Positions 34,865-46,985 of a stretch of DNA of 64,000 nucleotides are shown here, piece after piece. The position numbers and the translations under genes were made by a program. The stretch comes from Calothrix rhizosoleniae SC01. GTDB lineage: Bacteria > Cyanobacteriota > Cyanobacteriia > Cyanobacteriales > Nostocaceae. The stretch's first letter is position 1, and each line of letters opens with the position of its first letter. The stretch lies in NCBI RefSeq assembly GCF_900185595.1, contig NZ_FYBH01000114.1, positions 1-64,000 on the forward strand. Direction: 5' to 3'. The notes beneath the pieces are model-generated. The model saw only the letters and a program-made list of their open reading frames with translations. It was not told the origin of the DNA and did not search any database.

Positions 34865-35270
34865 AATTACGTGGAGTGCGATTTTTGTCTTTCACTCGTC
34901 ATCTCCCTCAAACTCCATCAACAACAGTTGATACTTTGAGTGGTGGTTCAGGGGAACAAATAAAAATTATTTTTGATTCCTGGGAAAATGGAGAAAGGGC
35001 AAGTGCGCTGTCTAGCGTGCTGATTATGTAAGGGTCCTGGGAAAAAGTATTCTCAAGGCGTGGGAGAGCGAAAGCAATCAAGAAGTGAATATTGTTGGAT
35101 ATTCATTCAGTACCCCGTCTCAGAAAAAGAACTAGACCTCACTACAGACAATCCCTAACAGAATAATGTTCCCAACCAATTCTCTAGTGAACAGAGGATA
35201 GGTAATGATGATGATAAACAGCACCTAGCGAAATTTGTCGTTCAACAGAGTGACTCCTTGGAAGGTAAAT

Positions 35271-36695
35271 ATGTCTTACACGAAGACTCAGGCAAAAGCA
35301 GGGTATGAAGCAGGGGTAAAGGATTACCGATTAACTTATTACACCCCAGACTACACACCAAAAGATACAGATTTATTAGCGGCGTTCCGCATGACACCCC
35401 AGCCGGGAGTTCCTCCAGAAGAAGCTGGCGCTGCTGTAGCTGCTGAGTCTTCCACTGGTACTTGGACAACCGTGTGGACAGACTTGCTCACCGACCTAGA
35501 TCGCTACAAAGGTCGTTGCTACGATATTGAGCCAGTTGCTGGTGAAGATAACCAATATATTTGCTACGTAGCTTATCCTTTGGATTTGTTTGAAGAAGGT
35601 TCTGTAACTAATGTGTTGACCTCCATTGTAGGTAACGTATTTGGTTTTAAAGCTCTGCGAGCACTACGTTTGGAAGACTTACGGATTCCCGTTGCTTACC
35701 TGAAAACATTCCAAGGCCCTCCCCACGGTATCCAAGTTGAACGTGACAAATTAAATAAGTATGGTCGTCCTTTGTTGGGTTGTACCATTAAGCCTAAGTT
35801 AGGTTTGTCTGCGAAGAACTACGGTCGTGCTGTGTATGAATGTTTGCGCGGTGGTTTGGACTTCACCAAGGACGACGAAAACATCAACTCTGCTCCCTTC
35901 CAACGGTGGCGCGATCGCTTCTTGTTTGTGGCTGATGCTATTCACAAAGCACAAGCAGAGACTGGTGAAATCAAGGGTCACTATTTGAACGTAACCGCTC
36001 CTACCTGCGAGCAAATGTTACAACGGGCTGAGTACGCTAAAGAGCTGAATATGCCCATCGTTATGCATGACTACCTGACCGCAGGTTTCACTGCTAACAC
36101 CACCTTGGCTCGTTGGTGTCGTGACAATGGTCTATTACTACACATCCACAGAGCGATGCACGCGGTTATTGACCGTCAGAAGAACCACGGTATTCACTTC
36201 CGGGTATTGGCTAAGTGTTTGCGGATGTCTGGTGGTGACCATATTCACACCGGAACCGTTGTTGGTAAATTGGAAGGTGAGCGTGGTATCACCATGGGCT
36301 TCGTTGACTTGCTACGTGAAAACTATGTTGAGCAAGACAAGTCTCGCGGTATTTACTTTACCCAAGATTGGGCTTCTATGCCTGGTGTAATGGCTGTAGC
36401 TTCCGGTGGTATCCACGTATGGCACATGCCCGCATTGGTAGAAATCTTTGGTGATGATTCCGTACTACAATTTGGTGGTGGTACTTTGGGTCACCCCTGG
36501 GGTAATGCTCCTGGCGCAACCGCTAACCGTGTAGCCTTAGAAGCTTGTGTTCAAGCTCGTAACGAAGGACGTAGCATGGCTCGTGAAGGTGGCGACATCA
36601 TCCGTGAAGCTGCTAGATGGTCCCCAGAATTAGCTGCTGCTTGCGAACTGTGGAAGGAAATTAAGTTCGAGTTCGAGGCAATGGATACCGTCTAA
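35271..36695 (+). CDS. rbcL: RuBisCO large subunit (form IB)
   Basis: 474 residues from the ATG at 35271 ([20 protein letters not shown]); the longer frame start at 35235 adds 12 residues not found in the family. Active-site residues are present: Lys174 (TIKPKLGLS) and the carbamylated Lys200 ([13 protein letters not shown]), plus the loop 6 and C-terminal elements. It fixes CO2 on ribulose bisphosphate in the carboxysome. It is the first gene of rbcL-rbcX-rbcS. A GGAAGG site precedes the start. Form IB is inferred from cyanobacterial context and sequence. Confidence 0.98.
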
Positions 36696-36713
36696 TTCTT
36701 AGGTACAAGGTAA

Positions 36714-36762
36714 AAGTTAAAAAGTAAAAGAATATATTTTTTCTTCTTTTGACTTTTAACTT
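36714..36762 (+). other. Long hairpin between rbcL and rbcX
   Basis: AAGTTAAAAAGTAAAAGAA and TTCTTTTGACTTTTAACTT can pair over about 18 bases with one or two bulges. An AU-rich stem directly after rbcL could set the rbcL:rbcS mRNA ratio by processing or partial termination; that role is inference. Confidence 0.5.
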
Positions 36763-36783
36763 AACTAAAGGCTGGGGTCAAGC

Positions 36784-37191
36784 ATGAATTTGAAGCAAAT
36801 TGCGAAAGACACAGCTAAGACACTGCAACGTTACCTGACTTACCAGGCAATTAAAACTGTGTTAGCTCAACTTAGTCAAACAAATCCTCCACTATGGCGC
36901 TGGCTAAATAACTTTTCCGCCGACAAAATTCAGGATGGGGAAGCTCTGATAGAGCAGCTTTTCCAAGAAAAACCAGAATTGGCTTTGCGGATTATGTCTG
37001 TCAGAGAAAATATTGCAGAGGAAGTAGCTGAGTTTTTACCAGAAATGCTTTGCACTGGTATTCAGCAAGCTAATATGCAGCATCGTCGTCAGCATCTTGA
37101 GCGTATTACGCAGTTGAATTTATCTAACCCCAGCCTAGAGACGGAGCAAAAAACCAATCCAGATCCTAATTTAGATATTCCATCTGATTAG
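36784..37191 (+). CDS. rbcX: RuBisCO assembly chaperone RbcX
   Basis: 135 residues, all-helical (MNLKQIAKDTAKTLQRYLTY). In the family RbcX works as a dimer that clamps the C-terminal tail of RbcL and helps assemble the L8 core. The central helix region and the surface with Gln/Leu residues look intact, and the polar C-terminal tail (NPSLETEQKTNPDPNLDIPS) is as expected. It lies between rbcL and rbcS, the usual Nostocales order, 88 bp after rbcL and 46 bp before rbcS. Confidence 0.94.
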   Translation: MNLKQIAKDTAKTLQRYLTYQAIKTVLAQLSQTNPPLWRWLNNFSADKIQDGEALIEQLFQEKPELALRIMSVRENIAEEVAEFLPEMLCTGIQQANMQHRRQHLERITQLNLSNPSLETEQKTNPDPNLDIPSD

Positions 37192-37237
37192 ATTCTGCTT
37201 ACCGTAGTTCAAATATCGCCAACTATCATCAAAAACT

Positions 37238-37567
37238 ATGCAAACTTTACCAAAAGAGCGTCGTTACGAAACCCTTTCTTACCTTCCTCCTCTGAGTGAC
37301 GCTCAAATCGCCAAGCAAATTCAGTACGTTTTGGATCAAGGTTACTTCCCAGCAATTGAGTTCAACGAAGATTCTGAACCTACCCAGTATTACTGGACAA
37401 TGTGGAAATTGCCTTTGTTCAACGCTACCAGCACCCAAGATGTATTGAGAGAAGTACAAGAATGTCGTTCTCAATACTCTAATTGCTTTATCCGCGTTGT
37501 TGGTTTTGATAATATTAAGCAGTGTCAAATCCTCAGCTTCATTGTTCACAAACCCAACAGATACTAA
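37238..37567 (+). CDS. rbcS: RuBisCO small subunit
   Basis: 109 residues, normal for cyanobacterial RbcS. It opens [20 protein letters not shown] and has the conserved [20 protein letters not shown] and the [10 protein letters not shown] segments. Four copies cap each end of the L8 core and are needed for high activity. It is the last gene of the operon; a terminator follows at 37615. Confidence 0.97.
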
Positions 37568-37614
37568 GATTGATTCGCTATTAATAATTAGCGACAACTC
37601 GGTATTTTAAAATT

Positions 37615-37657
37615 AAGAGGGGTGGAAATATCTACCTCTCTTCTTTTTATTTTTTTA
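37615..37657 (+). terminator. Terminator of the rbcLXS operon
   Basis: AAGAGGGGTGG and CTACCTCTCTT pair with two mismatches around AAATAT, then CTTTTTATTTTTTT. A second small palindrome, CGCTATTAATAATTAGCG, lies just upstream at 37577-37594. Confidence 0.75.
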
Positions 37658-37686
37658 GCATCAAATGGCTGAATGCAAATCGTGTC

Positions 37687-38130
37687 ATGGTTATAGAAGA
37701 GTTAAACCTGAAAAATTTTGATGTTGCTTTAGAGCTGTTACAAAAATACCAAGAATTCTATCAAGTAAATGCGATTGATACAGAAAAAAATCGTCAACAC
37801 TTGAATAGAATCATGAATAATGAAGAATTGGGAAAATTATTTCTCTTGCAAGATAAGGAAATACATCTTGGTTTCGCAACAATTTATTATTCATTTTCTA
37901 GTACCATTGCCGAACAAATTGCCATTCTCAATGATTTATATATATTAGAAAATCATCGTAGGCAAGGATATGGCAAAAAGTTGGTTGACTACTGCATCAA
38001 TTATCTTCAGTCCCGTGGTATGAGTACAGTTAGATGGTCAACTACTAAAGATAATGCGATCGCACAACAGCTATATCAAAAATATGGAAGTGGAAGTGAG
38101 TGGCTAATCTACTCTTATAAAATTAATTAA
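37687..38130 (+). CDS. GNAT-family N-acetyltransferase
   Basis: 147 residues. The acetyl-CoA binding segment RRQGYGKKLVDY (RxxGxG) is at about residues 97-108, preceded by the beta-strand NDLYILENH. The substrate is unknown; the family acetylates small amines or protein N-termini. The next gene starts 2 bp after its stop, so it is co-transcribed with the SGNH hydrolase. Both lie between rbcS and rca. Confidence 0.82.
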   Translation: MVIEELNLKNFDVALELLQKYQEFYQVNAIDTEKNRQHLNRIMNNEELGKLFLLQDKEIHLGFATIYYSFSSTIAEQIAILNDLYILENHRRQGYGKKLVDYCINYLQSRGMSTVRWSTTKDNAIAQQLYQKYGSGSEWLIYSYKIN

Positions 38131-38132
38131 TT

Positions 38133-38744
38133 ATGTCAGGAACTAAGCCTTCAGAAGTGAGAATTTGCTTTCTAGGAGAATCATTTGTGAATGGAACTGG
38201 CGACCCCCAATGCCTTGGTTGGACAGGTAGAATATGTGTAAATGCCAATCAAAAAGGTTACGATATAACGTACTATAATTTAGGTGTAAGAAGAGAAACT
38301 AGCACTGAGCTAAAAAATCGTTGGTTAACAGAAGTTTCCTATCGCTTACCAAAAGAATATGATGGTAGGGTTGTGTTTTCCTTTGGTGTAAATGACATAA
38401 CAATAGAAAATGGGAAAACCCGCGTACCAATAAATCAATCAATTGAAAATCTCTCCAGTATTTTAAGTGCAGCTAAACAGTTATACCCTGTGTTAATGGT
38501 TAGTCCAGCACCATGTGGAGATAGGGAACAAAATCAGAGAATTGCTAATTTATCTCAAGAGTTTGGTTTAGTTTGCCAACAATTGAATATACCTTATTTA
38601 AATGTTTTTCCTATTTTAAAAAAATCTTCTGTGTGGATAGATGAAGCTAAAAATAATGATGGTGCTCATCCCAGAGCAGGAGGTTATCAAGTATTTGCAC
38701 AAATTGTAGATAATTGGGATGGTTGGTTAAGTTGGTTTCGGTGA
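38133..38744 (+). CDS. SGNH/GDSL-type esterase or lipase
   Basis: 203 residues. Block I reads CFLGESFVNGTGD, with GES instead of GDS, so the nucleophile Ser is kept; block III has FSFGVND with the Asn; block V is NNDGAHPRAGGY with the catalytic Asp and His. No signal peptide is visible, so it is probably cytoplasmic. It removes acyl groups from an unknown substrate. It is coupled to the GNAT gene (2-bp gap); an acetylase-deacetylase pair is possible but unproven. Confidence 0.75.
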   Translation: MSGTKPSEVRICFLGESFVNGTGDPQCLGWTGRICVNANQKGYDITYYNLGVRRETSTELKNRWLTEVSYRLPKEYDGRVVFSFGVNDITIENGKTRVPINQSIENLSSILSAAKQLYPVLMVSPAPCGDREQNQRIANLSQEFGLVCQQLNIPYLNVFPILKKSSVWIDEAKNNDGAHPRAGGYQVFAQIVDNWDGWLSWFR

Positions 38745-38780
38745 AGTATGTAAGTATATTATTAAATAGTATTTAATAAT

Positions 38781-39347
38781 TTAATTCTCTTGAAGCCATT
38801 GTATAACAATAGCAGCATTTTTATTTGGTGGAAACACTGGATAAAACACATGTTCAACGAAACCTTGATATAAAATCAGCGTCAGTCGTTTAATTAAAGT
38901 CATATCATCAACAGAAAATGTTGGTAACTGTAAAGCTTTTGCAAGTAACAACTGCTCATCACTTAATATAGGAAAAGGCAGATGTAGCCTTGTTACCATT
39001 TCTTGTTGGTAGTCGGTTGATTGTGTACTTAGCCCATAAACAGAGGCACCAAGGGTTTTGATTTCAGTATGATGATCCCGAAAAGCACAAGACTGAGGTG
39101 TACAGCCCCGGGCACCTGGGATCATATCCCAATCTTCTGGTAAGGGCTTATCAGGCTGCCCTGTCATGGGATAGCAGTATATTACAACACGCTGCTGATG
39201 GCTTTCTGCACATATATCAACGGATTGTCCGGTTGTTGCGGAAAGCTTTATAGTTGGTACAGGGAATCCTGGTAAATGGCGACAGGTGCCATCATCTTTT
39301 GGAATTGGAAGATCCTCAGGGAGTTGATTGAGTCTGCTCATATGCAT
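38781..39347 (-). CDS. Peroxiredoxin, PrxQ/BCP-like redoxin
   Basis: 188 residues. The motif GCTPQSCAFRDHH (Cys82 and Cys87) matches the atypical 2-Cys PrxQ pattern CTxxxC, and GASVYGLSTQSTDYQQEM follows the family template. It is likely a thiol peroxidase reduced by thioredoxin. There are two close starts (MHM at 39347 and 39341). It converges on the SGNH hydrolase and is divergent from rca, with a 316-bp AT-rich gap (39348-39663) in which I see no gene; minor frames there are low-complexity shadows. Confidence 0.75.
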   Translation of the reverse strand: MHMSRLNQLPEDLPIPKDDGTCRHLPGFPVPTIKLSATTGQSVDICAESHQQRVVIYCYPMTGQPDKPLPEDWDMIPGARGCTPQSCAFRDHHTEIKTLGASVYGLSTQSTDYQQEMVTRLHLPFPILSDEQLLLAKALQLPTFSVDDMTLIKRLTLILYQGFVEHVFYPVFPPNKNAAIVIQWLQEN

Positions 39348-39663
39348 ATAGTCTTTCTATACTTCATCGTTCGTTAGTCTTATATAGGCTCTAAATGCTA
39401 CACCTTTATCTTAATGGACTACAAAGTAATTGAGTAGTTCATCCCATGAATAAAAACTGTTTCAGAAATATCTATAATCCAAGCATTTACCCAAGTCAAA
39501 TATATCATGGTGGTAAATATAAAGGAATTTATATAAGGATTTAAGAAATTTTTATTAGTATATAAAGTACGCTGATAAAATTTTACATTTTGCATCATAA
39601 TATTATTGAAAGCCAAGTTGTAACTAACCACTGCTAACAATCAATCAAAAATCCAAAATTAAT

Positions 39664-40914
39664 ATGAGTTATTATATCTCCCCCCATTTTGAAGAGAAAC
39701 TTGCCATTTTTATCACCAAAAACTATCTTAATATCCCCAATATGCGAGTTCCTTTAATATTAGGAATTCATGGACGTAAAGGTGAAGGTAAATCATTTCA
39801 ATGCGATTTAGTACTGGAAAAAATGGGTGTGGAAGTAACTCATATCTCCGGGGGAGAATTGGAAAGTCCTGATGCTGGAGATCCCGCCCGTTTATTGCGT
39901 CTGCGTTACCGGGAAACCGCCGAATTAATCAAAGTGCGGGGTCAAATGTGTGTAATTCTGATCAACGATTTAGATGCAGGTGCGGGACGCTTTGATGAAG
40001 GTACTCAGTATACGGTGAATACCCAATTGGTAAATGCCACACTGATGAATATTGCCGATAATCCTACCAATGTCCAACTTCCAGGAAGTTACGATGCTAC
40101 ACCTTTACATCGTGTCCCCATTATCGCTACTGGAAATGATTTTTCTACCCTCTATGCTCCATTAATTCGGGATGGACGCATGGAAAAATATTATTGGCAA
40201 CCAGATAAGGATGACAAGCTGGGTATTGTTGGTGGTATTTTTAGTGAAGATGGGCTGTCATCCCAGGAAGTAGAGCAATTAATTGATAAGTTTCCCAACC
40301 AGGCTATTGACTTTTTTAGCGCCTTGCGATCGCGTATTTATGATCAACAAATTAGTGACTTTATTTATGAGGTTGGTTTAGAACGTATATCTCAACGGGT
40401 GGTTAAAAGTTTAGCTGGATTACCAGAATTTAAACGACCTGATTTTAGCTTATCTCACCTCACAGACATAGGTAACTTAATCGTTACAGAACAGCAGCAA
40501 GTGGATAATCACCGTTTGGTTGCTGAGTATAATCGCGTCTTAAATTTCCGCAAGTATAATCAATCTGCTGAAAGTAACCATGCGGATACAGAAATACCAA
40601 TTAGCCAGTCATCAACCAATGGCTCCCAAAAACATCACCTCAATAATTCCCATCTCACCCTGGAAACTCAAGCACAGGTTCGAGATTTACTGGCTTATGG
40701 TTACAAAATAGGTGTTGAGCACGTAGATGAGCGCCGTTTTCGTACTGGTTCTTGGCAAAGTTGTAATGTGGGCACAATTGATGCAGAATCAGATGCCATA
40801 TCAACCTTGAAACAATGCTTGACAGAATATAGTGATGAGTATGTAAGGTTAGTCGGAATAGATCCCAAGGCAAAGCGGCGAGTTGTAGAGCAGATTATTC
40901 AACGACCAAATTGA
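39664..40914 (+). CDS. rca: RuBisCO activase with small-subunit-like tail
   Basis: 416 residues. An AAA+ module with Walker A GIHGRKGEGKSFQ (34-46) and the aspartates of VILINDLDAGAGRFD (Walker B) is followed by the activase-specific RDGRMEKYYWQPDK and a helical domain. A linker of about 35 residues leads to a C-terminal RbcS-like (SSUL) domain at about 331-416. In cyanobacteria this form remodels inhibited RuBisCO, and the SSUL domain recruits it into carboxysomes, as in CcmM. It lies about 2 kb from rbcS. No clear Shine-Dalgarno. Confidence 0.93.
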   Translation: MSYYISPHFEEKLAIFITKNYLNIPNMRVPLILGIHGRKGEGKSFQCDLVLEKMGVEVTHISGGELESPDAGDPARLLRLRYRETAELIKVRGQMCVILINDLDAGAGRFDEGTQYTVNTQLVNATLMNIADNPTNVQLPGSYDATPLHRVPIIATGNDFSTLYAPLIRDGRMEKYYWQPDKDDKLGIVGGIFSEDGLSSQEVEQLIDKFPNQAIDFFSALRSRIYDQQISDFIYEVGLERISQRVVKSLAGLPEFKRPDFSLSHLTDIGNLIVTEQQQVDNHRLVAEYNRVLNFRKYNQSAESNHADTEIPISQSSTNGSQKHHLNNSHLTLETQAQVRDLLAYGYKIGVEHVDERRFRTGSWQSCNVGTIDAESDAISTLKQCLTEYSDEYVRLVGIDPKAKRRVVEQIIQRPN

Positions 40915-41771: not shown

Positions 41772-41884
41772 TATAGTGCTACGGGCAAGTAATAAGTAAT
41801 AAGTAATAAGTAATAAGTAATAAGTTTACTGTTAATAGCTTTGGTGCTTCAACAATGTACGCGCCCTAATCGCATAGTACTATA
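41772..41884 (-). repeat. TATAGC-family palindromic element, copy 4 (inverted)
   Basis: Starts TATAGTGCTACGGGCAAG, then five or so AATAAGT units and TTTACTG, and ends in GTACTATA. The order of blocks is the reverse of the 24110 copy, so it is inserted in the opposite orientation. The core GTTAGGACAT part is replaced. Confidence 0.7.
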
Positions 41885-41935: not shown

Positions 41936-44215
41936 TTATTGTTGGGATAAAAGCGAGTAAGCTTCATTAACTAATCGCATATTTTTCTCAGCCTTTTGTT
42001 TCATTTCCGGTTTATCTATATATAAATCTGGATGCCATTTCCTAACCAATTTTTTGTAAGTATTTTTAATCTCAACTATAGATACTCCTGGCTGTAGTCC
42101 TAATATTTTGTAAGCTCGATTAATTTGTTGTTGATCTACTTTAGCTTGAGACTTATTGTTACTCTTGTTATCTTTGTTTGTTTGATTTTGTTGGTTATTA
42201 TTTTTTTTACTACGATTAAATCCAGACTTACCCATATTTGCTTTCATTTGGGCAATTTCTTGATCAATTTCCCAAGCACTGAATTTTGCTTCTAAATCAT
42301 GTGCTGGTGGGGGAGGGGAAGATGGAGGTGATTTTTTTGTGGTTGTTTGGTTTGTTTGCTGATTTTGTTGTTGCTGTGGTGCTTTTCGGGGAATTACAAC
42401 TTCTTCTTTCACACCTTTCCCAGAGAAACTATACACTGAGGATTTAGTTTGGGTTTGTGGAGGTTTTATTTCTGGAGAATTGAAAGTCTTTGCTTCAATT
42501 TTAAATTCATCAGTAATAGGAATGTCCAGACTTTTTTGTAGCTGTTGATTTAACTCGGATAAACTATTTTGCCATTTCTGTAATTCAATTTGTTTTTGTT
42601 GAATTTCTAATGGTAGTTCACTACGATTAAATTGAATAATAATTTCTAATTGTTGCTGATATTTATCTATAATTGATAATCCTTGACGATTCACTTGCAT
42701 TAAATAATCATCAACAGCATCAAGACAAATTTTTGCGACTTGTTGATGATAGGATTCATTAGATGTTTTTGTCTCTGTTTTTTGCAGATTTTTATTCACC
42801 ATATAGGTGATACTTCCGACCACAGCAGCACCTACGGGGCCACCTAATAACCAAACAATACCGCCACCAACCGCTAAGGAACTGGGATCGCTAATCCCAT
42901 CATCAATTCCTGGCTTATGGGGTAGGGTAACTTGTGGTGTATTGGGTAAGTTAATGAATAAATCTTCTGGTCTTGTAGTTTGGAAGATTTCATTAGCTTG
43001 ATACAGCCATTTACTCACTTCTAATTGTAGTTGTTTTAAATCTTGTTTGAGATGATCTATTTCCCATGATTTAAACTCATTTTGAGCCAAAGCAACAGCA
43101 GCATCTGCTTGATATTTATCTCGCAAGTTGGTTATGTTTAAAAAATCTTTTAATTCATTAATACTCTGATGAAAACCTTGTTTAATTAACTCGGCAGCAC
43201 GTTTTTTAATATTGTATTTTGCCTGATTTTTGTCTGAAAATTGAGCGATTTCAACTTCTAAAGGTGTAATTTTTATTTTTAGCGATCGCTGGATTTTTGC
43301 AGCTATTTTTTCTACCCTTGGCTTTCTTACTACTTGGGTATCTTTTTGCAGAATCCTCACCAAGTTTTGTAATGCGGTTTCAAACTCGATTAAACCACTA
43401 GTATTAGCAGCTGCAACATCTCCTTTTAATCTAGCTCTTAAAGCAGGTAAAGCATCAACTCGATACAAATTACTAAAGCCGGAAGGTAATTCAGCGCGGA
43501 AACTTTCAGCTACAAAACGTAGGCGATGTTGCACTTGTTTTTGTTCGTCAGGCTCTAACAAATTCAAAAAGTTCGCCACAAAAATAACTGTTTTAATTCC
43601 CCGTTCCCACAGCCAATCCCGTAAATTTTCCCGTTCCTCCAAAGTCATCAACTTCCGCGCATCTAGTAATTGCACGACTAAATCCGCACCTAGGAGTTGT
43701 TGACGTACCAAATTATCTTGTGCTTCCCTGTCATTAGTTCCGGGTAAATCAAGGAACTCCACCCCCGTTTCTAGCAAAGGGTGGGGACAAAACACCTCCA
43801 CAGATGCAACATCTCCCCGCATCCGTCTCTCACCATCAAGAACGGCAAACTTTTTTAAAATATCCGTACCAGGGCGGTAAATCTCCGTACCATCAACTAA
43901 AACAATGCGAGTCCGTAAGTCAGTCCCATACTTAACTATAATCGCTGCACCAGTGGTAGGAATCAAATCAATGGGTAAAGTTTTATTCCCCAACATGGCA
44001 TTAATTAAGGTAGACTTGCCATGATTAAAAGGTGCAAATACAGCAATACGCAAGTTGGGATTAGTCAGATGATGACAAATAGCGATCGCATCTGTATAAA
44101 GTGCTGATTTTGGATCTAAATCTAGCAATTTAGACGCAGATTTAATTGCTGTTGCTAGTTGTTGATAGTTTTGAAGTACCTGTTGCATTGGTTGACGGTT
44201 GACAATTATTTCCAA
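41936..44215 (-). CDS. Dynamin-like GTPase with C-terminal DnaJ domain
   Basis: 759 residues. The GTPase domain starts near residue 50: G1 FAPFNHGKSTL (60-70) and G3 DLPGTNDREAQ. A helical stalk region follows, then a glycine-rich hydrophobic stretch (AVGGGIVWLLGGPVGAAVVG) that may insert in membranes. Next come a second coiled coil and a Gln/Asn/Pro-rich linker (about 620-690). The last 62 residues (698-759) form a J-domain with the HPD triad in RKWHPDLY, expected to stimulate a DnaK-type Hsp70. It lies next to a BDLP orthologue on the same strand. The fusion is unusual; I know no characterised member. Confidence 0.85.
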   Translation of the reverse strand: MEIIVNRQPMQQVLQNYQQLATAIKSASKLLDLDPKSALYTDAIAICHHLTNPNLRIAVFAPFNHGKSTLINAMLGNKTLPIDLIPTTGAAIIVKYGTDLRTRIVLVDGTEIYRPGTDILKKFAVLDGERRMRGDVASVEVFCPHPLLETGVEFLDLPGTNDREAQDNLVRQQLLGADLVVQLLDARKLMTLEERENLRDWLWERGIKTVIFVANFLNLLEPDEQKQVQHRLRFVAESFRAELPSGFSNLYRVDALPALRARLKGDVAAANTSGLIEFETALQNLVRILQKDTQVVRKPRVEKIAAKIQRSLKIKITPLEVEIAQFSDKNQAKYNIKKRAAELIKQGFHQSINELKDFLNITNLRDKYQADAAVALAQNEFKSWEIDHLKQDLKQLQLEVSKWLYQANEIFQTTRPEDLFINLPNTPQVTLPHKPGIDDGISDPSSLAVGGGIVWLLGGPVGAAVVGSITYMVNKNLQKTETKTSNESYHQQVAKICLDAVDDYLMQVNRQGLSIIDKYQQQLEIIIQFNRSELPLEIQQKQIELQKWQNSLSELNQQLQKSLDIPITDEFKIEAKTFNSPEIKPPQTQTKSSVYSFSGKGVKEEVVIPRKAPQQQQNQQTNQTTTKKSPPSSPPPPAHDLEAKFSAWEIDQEIAQMKANMGKSGFNRSKKNNNQQNQTNKDNKSNNKSQAKVDQQQINRAYKILGLQPGVSIVEIKNTYKKLVRKWHPDLYIDKPEMKQKAEKNMRLVNEAYSLLSQQ

Positions 44216-44577
44216 AATCTAGTCTCTAAAATCCCTAACTCTTCGCCTGGAGCGCCTCTGCTTAACGAGGGAGTAGGGAGTAGGGGCGTGGGAGTAGGGA
44301 TGTCCCATACTTAAAAGTAGGGGATTTAATGTTGACGTTTTGTCTGTCACCGCTTGCGCCTCTCCACCCAAATTTTCTTAACTTTCCAGGGATAAATCCG
44401 GGGGCTATGTCCTACCGGACACGCTATCTCCTTTCAGGAGACACTTCGCGCTTCGCTAACAAACAATCCTGGAGTAGGGTATTTTTCCTCTTCCCCTACT
44501 CCCTACTCTCTACTCCCTACTCCCTACTCCCTATTTTGGTGAGCCAAATTCACATTCTGAATCAGCAACGCCAAAAA
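44216..44577. repeat. Repeat-filled gap between the two dynamins
   Basis: 362 bp. It holds GGGAGTAGG heptamers near 44265-44300, a GC-rich palindromic patch (ATGTCCTACCGGACACG, then AGACACTTCGCG) at about 44407-44455 and a CTCCCTA array at about 44492-44534. An 89-codon plus-strand frame across it is a repeat artefact. Because of it, co-transcription of the two dynamin genes cannot be assumed. Confidence 0.65.
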
Positions 44578-46659
44578 TTAACTGTAATCAGCAATTAAAT
44601 TACTATAAGCTAACTCTACCTTTTCTACCTGTACAGTCACATCCTCCCTAAGATTACTTAACCGTTTTAATTCTGTATCACGGTCAATTTCACGGGTTTG
44701 TTTCTGCTTGAGTAAGTTATCTAATTCTGACTTACGAGCTGTAATATCATCATTGATGCGGTTATTCACTTCTTGCTCATAGGAATCAAAACACTCCTTC
44801 ACCCCACTGTAAACAGTATGATATTGCTCATTGGCTACCTGGGGTAAATATTTCATCAACTCTTTCTTAGCAGTTTTTAGCAATTCCTTTCTGGCTTGAT
44901 CCGCTTGTAAAAAACCCACACCCAAACCTAACAATGCAAAGCCAATGGGACCGAGGAAAACCCCCGTAACCGCCGTAATTATGCCACCAATACCAATTAC
45001 AGTGAAGTAGTTTAACAGAATATTTTTCCAATCAAAACCCGCACCAGCCATCGCGAAACCAGCCAAATTTCCCCGAGCCAGAGAAAACAATCCCATTGCC
45101 CATTTTGCCCACGCCGGTGAGTTATCATCTTCACCAGAGACACTACTGTTCAATCTGACTGGTTCGCCGGTGAGTTTTTCTGTAATTCTATCTGTGACTT
45201 GATTATAGGACATGCCATACTTAGCCGCACTGCGGGAAAGTTGTCTAAAGGCTGCACCCATATCTTTTTCAGCAGTTAAACTCCAAGCCGCAAATTTATC
45301 GGCGATGTACTGCTCAAAAGCTGTTTGTAATGCAGTATTAAAAGCTTCCCGTTTCCCACTGCTGAGGAAATCAAGCAAATTTAACTCTGGTTGATAGCGG
45401 AGAAAATCATTCTCAAAAGTATTACCTAAACTTAAAACATAACTCTTGAAAGAATCAGCAATAGACTTGGCTTGGGTATCCCTAGTACGAATAATCTCTT
45501 GCTGAAACTCATCCCGAATACCCCTGAGCTTGTTAAATTCCGGTTCTACAGAAGTAATCCGTTCCTTGAGTTGATTCACATCTCGATCCAGAAGAGGAAT
45601 ACGTCTATCGATCGCTTCTTGAGTATTTGCACTAGCTTGACGAGCTAAGATTTTTACCTGTCGCAATTCTGCGATCGCTCTTTCCCTAGTTAAAAAGGTA
45701 TTTAATGCTTCCATAAACCGAGGGAAACCAGTTCCTGACAATGAAGCTTGAGGATTTTTTAATCGACGACGTAATGCTTGCAGAGAAGAGACTTCAAACA
45801 CCCGTTCATCATAGATATTTTGTCCATCAACAATACAGTAATCAGCTAAATTTGCCTGAAAAACTTGTCGCAAACGACCTTCTGCTTCTTGTAATTCCTC
45901 CTCATCATCGGGATCTATCAATGACTCTTTGACTTGATCCCATGCATTTAGTAAGAAGAAAACCGCAAGTCCCCTACCTTTAATATAATTCTCTAAATAG
46001 CGCCGTTCTCCTAAAGTACAAGGTTGGGAAGCTCGCATAACAAATAAAATTGCATGGCAATTATTCACATAACCCAAGGATAATTCATTCCGTGCTTCCG
46101 TATCATTTAATCCTGGACTATCAACAATTTCAATCCCTTTTTCTAACAATGGTAAGGGATACTCAACCACAGCATGACTAACATCAGGAAATGCTTCCTG
46201 CTTCTGTTGCTCTAACCTTTTTGCCTCTGCCGGATCAATAGTATACTTATGTTTAAAGGTATCAAAATCTAACTTTTGTGGACTCTTTCCATCATTAAAA
46301 TGTACAGTTACTTGTTTCTCTGCACCATAGCGCAAAACAGTCAACACCGCCGTACAAGGATTAACATTACTGGGTAACAAATTTTCCCCAATCAATGCAT
46401 TTAGAAACGTACTCTTACCCCGTTTCATATCTCCCAACACCAACAGACGGAATACACCTTGGCGGAGATTTTTACTCGCTACCTTAATATCTTCAATATC
46501 CCGTTCTAAACTGAGTTTTCCGGAAGCAGTATCCCCATCAATTTCTGCCCTATCGATAGTCTCAGCAAGTTTATCTAAAGCAATGGAAACCTCAGAACGG
46601 ACTCGAACAAATCGCTCTAAATCGTGAATAAACCGATCAGTAGGTATTTGATAACTCAT
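44578..46659 (-). CDS. Bacterial dynamin-like protein (BDLP type)
   Basis: 693 residues, the same length as Nostoc punctiforme BDLP, whose structure is known. G1 is GDMKRGKST with Lys82 at the position mutated (K82A) in published work. G3 is DSPGLNDTEA and G4 is LNAWD. The paddle region (LLNYFTVIGIGGIITAVTGV) and the trunk helices follow. BDLP binds GTP, tubulates and coats lipid membranes. It is followed in 5 bp spacing by the small TM protein upstream (46665), so the two are likely co-transcribed. Confidence 0.9.
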   Translation of the reverse strand: MSYQIPTDRFIHDLERFVRVRSEVSIALDKLAETIDRAEIDGDTASGKLSLERDIEDIKVASKNLRQGVFRLLVLGDMKRGKSTFLNALIGENLLPSNVNPCTAVLTVLRYGAEKQVTVHFNDGKSPQKLDFDTFKHKYTIDPAEAKRLEQQKQEAFPDVSHAVVEYPLPLLEKGIEIVDSPGLNDTEARNELSLGYVNNCHAILFVMRASQPCTLGERRYLENYIKGRGLAVFFLLNAWDQVKESLIDPDDEEELQEAEGRLRQVFQANLADYCIVDGQNIYDERVFEVSSLQALRRRLKNPQASLSGTGFPRFMEALNTFLTRERAIAELRQVKILARQASANTQEAIDRRIPLLDRDVNQLKERITSVEPEFNKLRGIRDEFQQEIIRTRDTQAKSIADSFKSYVLSLGNTFENDFLRYQPELNLLDFLSSGKREAFNTALQTAFEQYIADKFAAWSLTAEKDMGAAFRQLSRSAAKYGMSYNQVTDRITEKLTGEPVRLNSSVSGEDDNSPAWAKWAMGLFSLARGNLAGFAMAGAGFDWKNILLNYFTVIGIGGIITAVTGVFLGPIGFALLGLGVGFLQADQARKELLKTAKKELMKYLPQVANEQYHTVYSGVKECFDSYEQEVNNRINDDITARKSELDNLLKQKQTREIDRDTELKRLSNLREDVTVQVEKVELAYSNLIADYS

Positions 46660-46664
46660 AATCT

Positions 46665-46985
46665 TTAGTTTTGAGGATGGAAAAATAATTTATAAGCCGC
46701 AAACATTAAAATTCCAATAATAACTACTCCTGCAACTACAGCAGCTAAACGGACAGCCACCAGTGCTACAACTCCCAAACCGAATAACTTTAGTCCCAAG
46801 ACAGTTTTTTTCCGCCAAGCAGGTTTTTCAGTCTTTTTTGATTCATGCTTCACCGTTCGATAGAACTTAGCATCCTGCTCAGAAATTTCAGTTTCCAATT
46901 CCCGAAGTCGTAGTTCTGCTTCCTTTTCCCTTAATTTACGTTCTCTATGTTGTAATTCTTGTTCGTAATTTTCTGGAGAATTCAT
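46665..46985 (-). CDS. Small coiled-coil/TM protein upstream of BDLP
   Basis: 106 residues. The first 48 residues are a strongly charged coiled coil (LQHRERKLREKEAELRLREL). A basic patch (KKTEKPAWRKKT) precedes a hydrophobic segment at about 70-98 (VALVAVRLAAVVAGVVIIGI). It thus looks like a membrane-anchored helix. Its stop is 5 bp before the BDLP start, the tightest link in this cluster, so it is a candidate BDLP adaptor. I recognise no family. Confidence 0.65.
   Translation of the reverse strand: MNSPENYEQELQHRERKLREKEAELRLRELETEISEQDAKFYRTVKHESKKTEKPAWRKKTVLGLKLFGLGVVALVAVRLAAVVAGVVIIGILMFAAYKLFFHPQN

Follow-up and report, generated by a model that had tools for sequence, protein, structure and literature searches.

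What turns over the assemblies of bacterial dynamins, and what the partner of BDLP1, the best-studied of them, does are open questions, and a gene of Calothrix rhizosoleniae SC01 raises both in an unusual form. In the window analysed here (the whole 64,000-nucleotide stretch, positions 1 to 64,000 of contig NZ_FYBH01000114.1), a dynamin-like protein (DLP) with a C-terminal J-domain, here called DLP2-J, is encoded next to a BDLP1 ortholog. Bacterial genomes usually encode DLPs in pairs, with a 2:2 complex known in Campylobacter (PMC6104087), and in the same paper Liu, Noel and Low (2018) remark that B2IZD2, a dynamin-like protein encoded beside BDLP1, has a DnaJ-like domain, which they suggested might bind DnaK and/or dimerise with BDLP1. 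The window protein, like B2IZD2, is a DLP with a C-terminal DnaJ-like domain beside BDLP1, and is very probably its ortholog, B2IZD2 being compared by its description. A literature search, whose coverage excluded most subscription journals, found no experimental or functional study of the fused protein; given the mention by Liu et al., we therefore regard the architecture as known but uncharacterised, which agrees with the statement of the earlier note that no member has been characterised. In that paper the proposal is a one-sentence hypothesis in which we found no description of distribution, fusion origin, a separate J gene, a G4 change or a shared helix, and the fusion history, split J gene, co-loss cases, G4 change and shared helix reported below appear to be new.

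Three successive genes occupy the minus strand of the window: a 106-aa small protein (46665–46985), a 693-aa dynamin-like protein (44578–46659) and DLP2-J. The reading frame of the last is open without interruption from 41936 to 44215 (759 aa counted from a TTG at 44215), although translation more probably starts from the ATG at 44188 (750 aa), since relatives begin at a conserved MQQ; the gene is accordingly placed at 41936–44188. The 693-aa protein encoded just upstream is orthologous to Nostoc punctiforme BDLP1: it aligns with PDB 2j68 over residues 3–693 (phmmer, 1261 bits) and matches the BDLP helical-domain model PF21808 at E 1.3e-181. This neighbourhood is constant, as DLP2-J lies directly beside a BDLP1 ortholog in the window and at 40/40 fused loci, always on the same strand with BDLP1 upstream and, in 39, less than 700 bp away. 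The spacer is about 390 bp in the window and near zero at some loci, and from this spacing we infer that the two genes are co-transcribed. The first gene of the cluster encodes a charged N-terminal part followed by a hydrophobic segment, with a weak DUF3040 match; a small membrane-protein gene of this kind opens the BDLP1 cluster in several families and is present at 34 of the 40 fused loci and at several unfused ones. Some genomes have two BDLP1-like genes ahead of DLP2 (L128, L142, L190), and in one (G348; L094 5803–7896) two in-frame stops split BDLP1 while DLP2-J is intact, reflecting either sequencing error or decay.

Is the GTPase itself sound? The earlier note had called it complete, and most of it is. 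A Dynamin_N G domain (residues 57–215; 43571–44047, minus strand; Pfam E 1.5e-22, PF00350 genome search) and a DnaJ domain (E 1.3e-12) occur in the same chain, both far above the Pfam curated cut-offs. G1 (APFNHGKST, residues 61–69; 44009–44035) has P62, F63, N64 and G66–T69 invariant, G3 (DLPG, residues 156–159; 43739–43750) is invariant, and across 24 aligned members GKST and DLPG are retained together with the threonine region of G2 (PTTGAA, fully or almost invariant). The canonical set fails at G4, where NFLN (residues 215–218; 43562–43573) aligns to the NAWD of BDLP1 and replaces NxxD. By a simple pattern search, all 66 scored DLP2 members read NF(L/I/T/V/M)N, without the Asp, whereas BDLP1-type proteins keep NAWD or NGWD in 63/63. 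We retain the label ‘dynamin-like’ for DLP2 because it rests on the whole G domain. In known GTPases the G4 Asp confers guanine specificity, and its change to Asn moves specificity towards xanthine nucleotides in some of them; since this Asp is changed, DLP2 may bind nucleotide in an unusual way or may act as a regulatory subunit.

Over about 250 residues the G domain resembles that of BDLP1 (PDB 2j68, 2j69, 2w6d; hhalign 99.7%, 31% identity), and a profile match to 2j68 stands at 2.8e-32; DLP2 differs from BDLP1 in its NFxN G4, in carrying the J tail and in having no match to PF21808 in the Pfam search. After the G domain the chain has a predicted helical part. The hydrophobic stretch previously described as paddle-like (residues 446–474; 42794–42880, minus strand) is real and well conserved (mean majority-residue conservation 0.88 over residues 441–475 of 40 fused proteins). 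Its identity as a paddle is plausible, although the alignment with the GP-I/V-G region of BDLP1 is very weak and non-significant (second domain, i-Evalue 23).

The tail that follows has three parts, all on the minus strand. A variable Q/N/P-rich linker with no confident structure (residues 563–638; 42302–42529) leads to a conserved short helix-like motif, DLEAKFSAWEIDQEIAQMKANMGK (42224–42301), common to stand-alone J-proteins and to the C-termini of TIGR04376 proteins (see below), and then to the J-domain (residues 695–758; 41942–42133; Pfam DnaJ match at 701–758) with its HPD tripeptide at residues 728–730 (42026–42034). In an AlphaFold2 model built from only two sequences, the window protein and its Calothrix MO_192.B10 relative, residues 693–759 alone are confident, forming J-like helices at pLDDT about 80, and the remainder is unusable. 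The C-terminal J-domain with HPD that had been read from the open frame is thus borne out. DnaJ models match the chain in its J part only, leaving it with neither the zinc finger nor the C-terminal substrate domains of DnaJ, as in a class C type J-protein. Among the 40 fused proteins, majority-residue conservation is 0.90 in the G domain and 0.77 in the J-domain but falls to 0.42 in the linker (residues 563–655). HPD is kept in 39/40, the exception (G462; L104) reading HHD. When the window gene is compared with that of Calothrix MO_192.B10, dN/dS comes to 0.26 in the J-domain, 0.13 in the G domain and 0.23–0.26 in the linkers; purifying selection thus acts on the J-domain, though in this single comparison no more tightly than on the linkers. 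Given the retained HPD and this dN/dS, the J-domain is unlikely to be a vestigial passenger.

The distribution of the fusion removes the concern, raised at the outset, that it might be an assembly artefact, because it recurs in 40/40 intact Nostocaceae loci from many genera, some of them on single-contig chromosomes. A dynamin core at E<1e-60 is present in 129 of 218 genomes of the same family, where frames are nearly all about 700–795 aa; in the rest of the family the gene is missing or a broken copy. In 112 genomes outside the family (391-genome order sample) the frames are about 550–600 aa; the DLP2 ortholog there (~560 aa) lacks a J-domain, ending where the linker of the fused protein begins. 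We read 40 fused and 34 unfused orthologous loci directly. In the suggested phylogeny of the GTPase, a tree built on the dynamin part, the fused proteins group in a single clade (SH-aLRT 100), whose sister group f55 lacks a J-domain, and this topology points to a fusion that happened once, close to the base of the sampled Nostocaceae. The fusion is widespread and conserved in this family, well beyond the one Nostoc protein noted before. A related-locus search of a contig collection returned a single relative, that of Calothrix MO_192.B10; on plasmids the matches were all weak, confined to the G domain and to other DLPs. A few Nostocaceae also encode more distant DLP2-like paralogs (about 40% identity, without a J-domain; L149, L150, L151) adjoining other DLP genes.

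These patterns bear on the second function offered for B2IZD2. The J-like domain might serve chiefly in assembly, pairing DLP2 with BDLP1 much as the assembly domain of Campylobacter jejuni Cj-DLP1 brings Cj-DLP1 and Cj-DLP2 together, with Hsp70 recruitment secondary or absent; Liu et al. put the pairing role forward beside DnaK binding (PMC6104087). The constant adjacency to BDLP1 is what such a module would lead one to expect. But BDLP1/DLP2 gene pairs occur without any J-domain, so that there, at least, it is not needed for pairing, and HPD, the tripeptide kept in 39 of 40 members, serves Hsp70 activation, not packing. We consider a primarily structural module very unlikely. The Campylobacter pair (PDB 5owv) is instructive in another respect, as it too consists of two different DLPs encoded side by side and shows G-domain similarity to DLP2-J; no J-domain is described for it, and the partners meet via the assembly domain of Cj-DLP1 itself.

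If the J-domain is not a pairing device, is its attachment to DLP2 more than an accident of one fusion? Outside the family the same unit is found as a separate gene. In four unfused loci (L122, L124, L131, L135) the next gene downstream of DLP2 encodes a stand-alone HPD J-protein of at most 118–149 aa that can be aligned end to end with the fused tail, the helix-like motif before the J-domain included (LEAKFSAWEIDQEIAQMKANM in the window, LEAKFQAWEMDAELAKLKQ in a stand-alone example). When a helix-plus-J profile derived partly from these same four loci was run against 34 genomes with an unfused DLP2, whole-length matches were confined to the four with the adjacent gene (E below 1e-37), the others being weaker than 1e-23 and essentially J-domain only. 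Across the order, the unit occurs at E<1e-26 in 55 of 391 genomes, comprising 40 fused Nostocaceae, one Nostocaceae remnant and 14 others, and in 12 of these 14 it immediately follows DLP2 on the same strand (by coordinates, with several read directly); the remaining two are G499 and G062, described below. Taken together, fusion and adjacency are two arrangements of the same partners, and the J-protein is therefore tied to the DLP2 dynamin. The 12 genomes span at least four lineages, and the four stand-alone J lineages are scattered on the tree of the dynamin part, so that either the J-protein neighboured the dynamin pair before the Nostocaceae fusion or it was placed there more than once; an ancestral gene later lost and several gains are both compatible with the tree. 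Some nine tenths of the genomes with an unfused DLP2 (100/112) have no such J gene beside it, and since f55 also lacks one, the chaperone link is not essential to the BDLP1/DLP2 pair.

A J gene in this position could alternatively act in the making of the dynamins, the J-domain recruiting DnaK so that DLP2 or BDLP1, large and hydrophobic as they are, can be helped to fold or held until they reach the membrane. Help in cis of this kind fits the adjacent J gene, which in G624 (L189) overlaps DLP2 by the four bases ATGA, and E. coli DnaK has been found bound to VIPP1 on expression (PMC6882379). Yet most orthologs manage without a J gene, and a C-terminal J-domain would emerge last, after the dynamin part has been made; we find a biogenesis chaperone distinctly improbable.

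The loci where the dynamins have been lost speak to a further possibility, namely that the dynamin part is a targeting device and DnaK the effector, acting on membrane-protein clients at damaged or curved membranes, so that the coat itself would not be the substrate. In G153 (L112 4884–5690) both dynamins are gone from the site and one open frame of 268 aa combines the small membrane protein with the J tail, which is to say that J persists with a membrane anchor but no coat. The long variable linker that carries the J-domain and the co-localisation of DnaK2 and DnaK3 with Vipp1 at thylakoid regions in high light (PMC6882379) point the same way. However, the J unit is bound to one DLP subfamily, and in G499 (L186 6922–7311), where no dynamin genes are found at the site, a stop inside the J-domain cuts the J gene short. 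On balance client delivery seems unlikely to us, though less so than either of the two preceding explanations. One further genome, G062, has an intact orphan helix-plus-J gene.

The reading we prefer, in line with the idea of the earlier note that DnaK might act on the dynamin coat, is that DLP2-J recruits DnaK to the dynamin pair. J-domains act through stimulation of Hsp70, and recruitment is probable, supported indirectly as it is by a single conserved fusion, by HPD in nearly all members, by purifying selection, by the stand-alone neighbour J gene and by the unbroken adjacency to BDLP1. Against it we count the G153 remnant with its J tail but no GTPases, the fused member with HHD, the other J-domain proteins of the genome, the gap of ~390 bp, and a J-domain dN/dS that is not below that of the linkers. 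The genome encodes three full-length DnaK proteins (PF00012 search) and contains 12 J-domain matches, so that other J-domain proteins could serve. The fuller proposal, in which the J-domain is a co-chaperone dedicated to the BDLP1/DLP2 pair and brings DnaK to its membrane assemblies for remodelling, we hold to have about an even chance of being right. BDLP1 and DLP2 would form a heterotypic membrane assembly, as has been demonstrated for Cj-DLP1/2 (PMC6104087), and the J-domain, on its flexible linker, would be free to swing out and stimulate DnaK there. Most likely this would serve ATP-driven remodelling of the polymer, subunits being released after membrane work or kept from assembling wrongly. 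That disassembly in particular is the purpose of recruitment is a more tentative idea, drawn from analogy and somewhat less likely to be true than not to be, though it is our first choice; a role in promoting assembly is another candidate. A conserved Hsp70 co-chaperone built into the dynamin would give the questions with which we began an answer open to test, in which DnaK remodels a dynamin polymer. As nature offers fused, split and J-less versions, deleting the J-domain or mutating its HPD, for example in Nostoc punctiforme, would be a simple way to learn what it does.

Two systems provide the analogy. Auxilin and GAK, together with Hsc70, uncoat clathrin. They resemble DLP2-J in placing a C-terminal J-domain on a protein of a membrane-shaping assembly (the coat role of the DLP part being presumed), but auxilin binds the coat of another protein whereas the J-domain of DLP2-J belongs to one of the presumed polymer's own subunits. 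Clathrin binding does not apply in bacteria, and the comparison is one of analogy only. The CDJ2-HSP70B-CGE1 system of Chlamydomonas likewise has a J-protein serving a membrane-remodelling polymer: HSP70, CDJ2 and CGE1 with ATP disassemble VIPP1 rods, E. coli DnaK can substitute for the algal HSP70, and Hsp70 drives ATP-dependent VIPP1 assembly as well as disassembly (PMC6882379). The differences are that CDJ2 is a protein in its own right and that the polymer it serves is ESCRT-III-like, not a dynamin. A genetic link between DLPs and the Hsp70 system has also been noted by Jilly et al. (2018), whose cyanobacterial DLP clades include a tandem pair holding BDLP1 and a ‘chaperone clade’ with a downstream DnaK gene (PMC5827413). 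There it is Hsp70 itself that is linked, as opposed to the J co-chaperone of DLP2-J; since the PF00012 search of the genome placed no Hsp70 gene on the contig of the window, we reject membership in that clade. DLP2-J might correspond to ‘Tandem A’ of the same authors, but that gene is placed upstream of BDLP1 (PMC5827413), whereas DLP2-J lies downstream, and the genomes with two BDLP1-like genes ahead of DLP2 make the comparison harder.

The short helix between linker and J-domain may connect the two kinds of polymer more directly. The TIGR04376 model matches the DLP2-J chain at E 2.2e-4, and a helix profile made from DLP/J tails only, with no TIGR04376 row, in turn matches the C-termini of TIGR04376 proteins at 3.5e-4 to 1.9e-8 in four genomes. 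In 4/4 genomes searched (L167, L176, L178, L180) the helix forms the extreme C-terminus of a 198–208 aa TIGR04376 protein. These proteins show a weak resemblance to PspA/IM30 (Pfam PspA_IM30 7e-6, short of the cut-off), and the C-termini of PspA and Vipp1 match the helix profile weakly (E 0.01–1). This suggests a docking helix common to the dynamin tail and ESCRT-III-like proteins, while convergence between short helices could also account for the likeness. Taken further, the tail, as a short helix plus a J-domain, might be a portable adaptor between the dynamin pair and the ESCRT-III-like Vipp1/PspA system; we regard this as a long shot, but, were it true, dynamin and ESCRT-III assemblies of cyanobacteria would share a docking site and the same DnaK machinery would turn both over.

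Two further features of the locus are recorded here. Short tandem repeats flank DLP2-J in both spacers (44240–44545 and 41780–41850; GGAGTAG..., ATTACTT...). Near the dynamin cluster, at 35235–40914 of the window, are rbcL, rbcX, an rbcS-like gene and a gene for RuBisCO activase, which has a small-subunit-like C-terminal domain.
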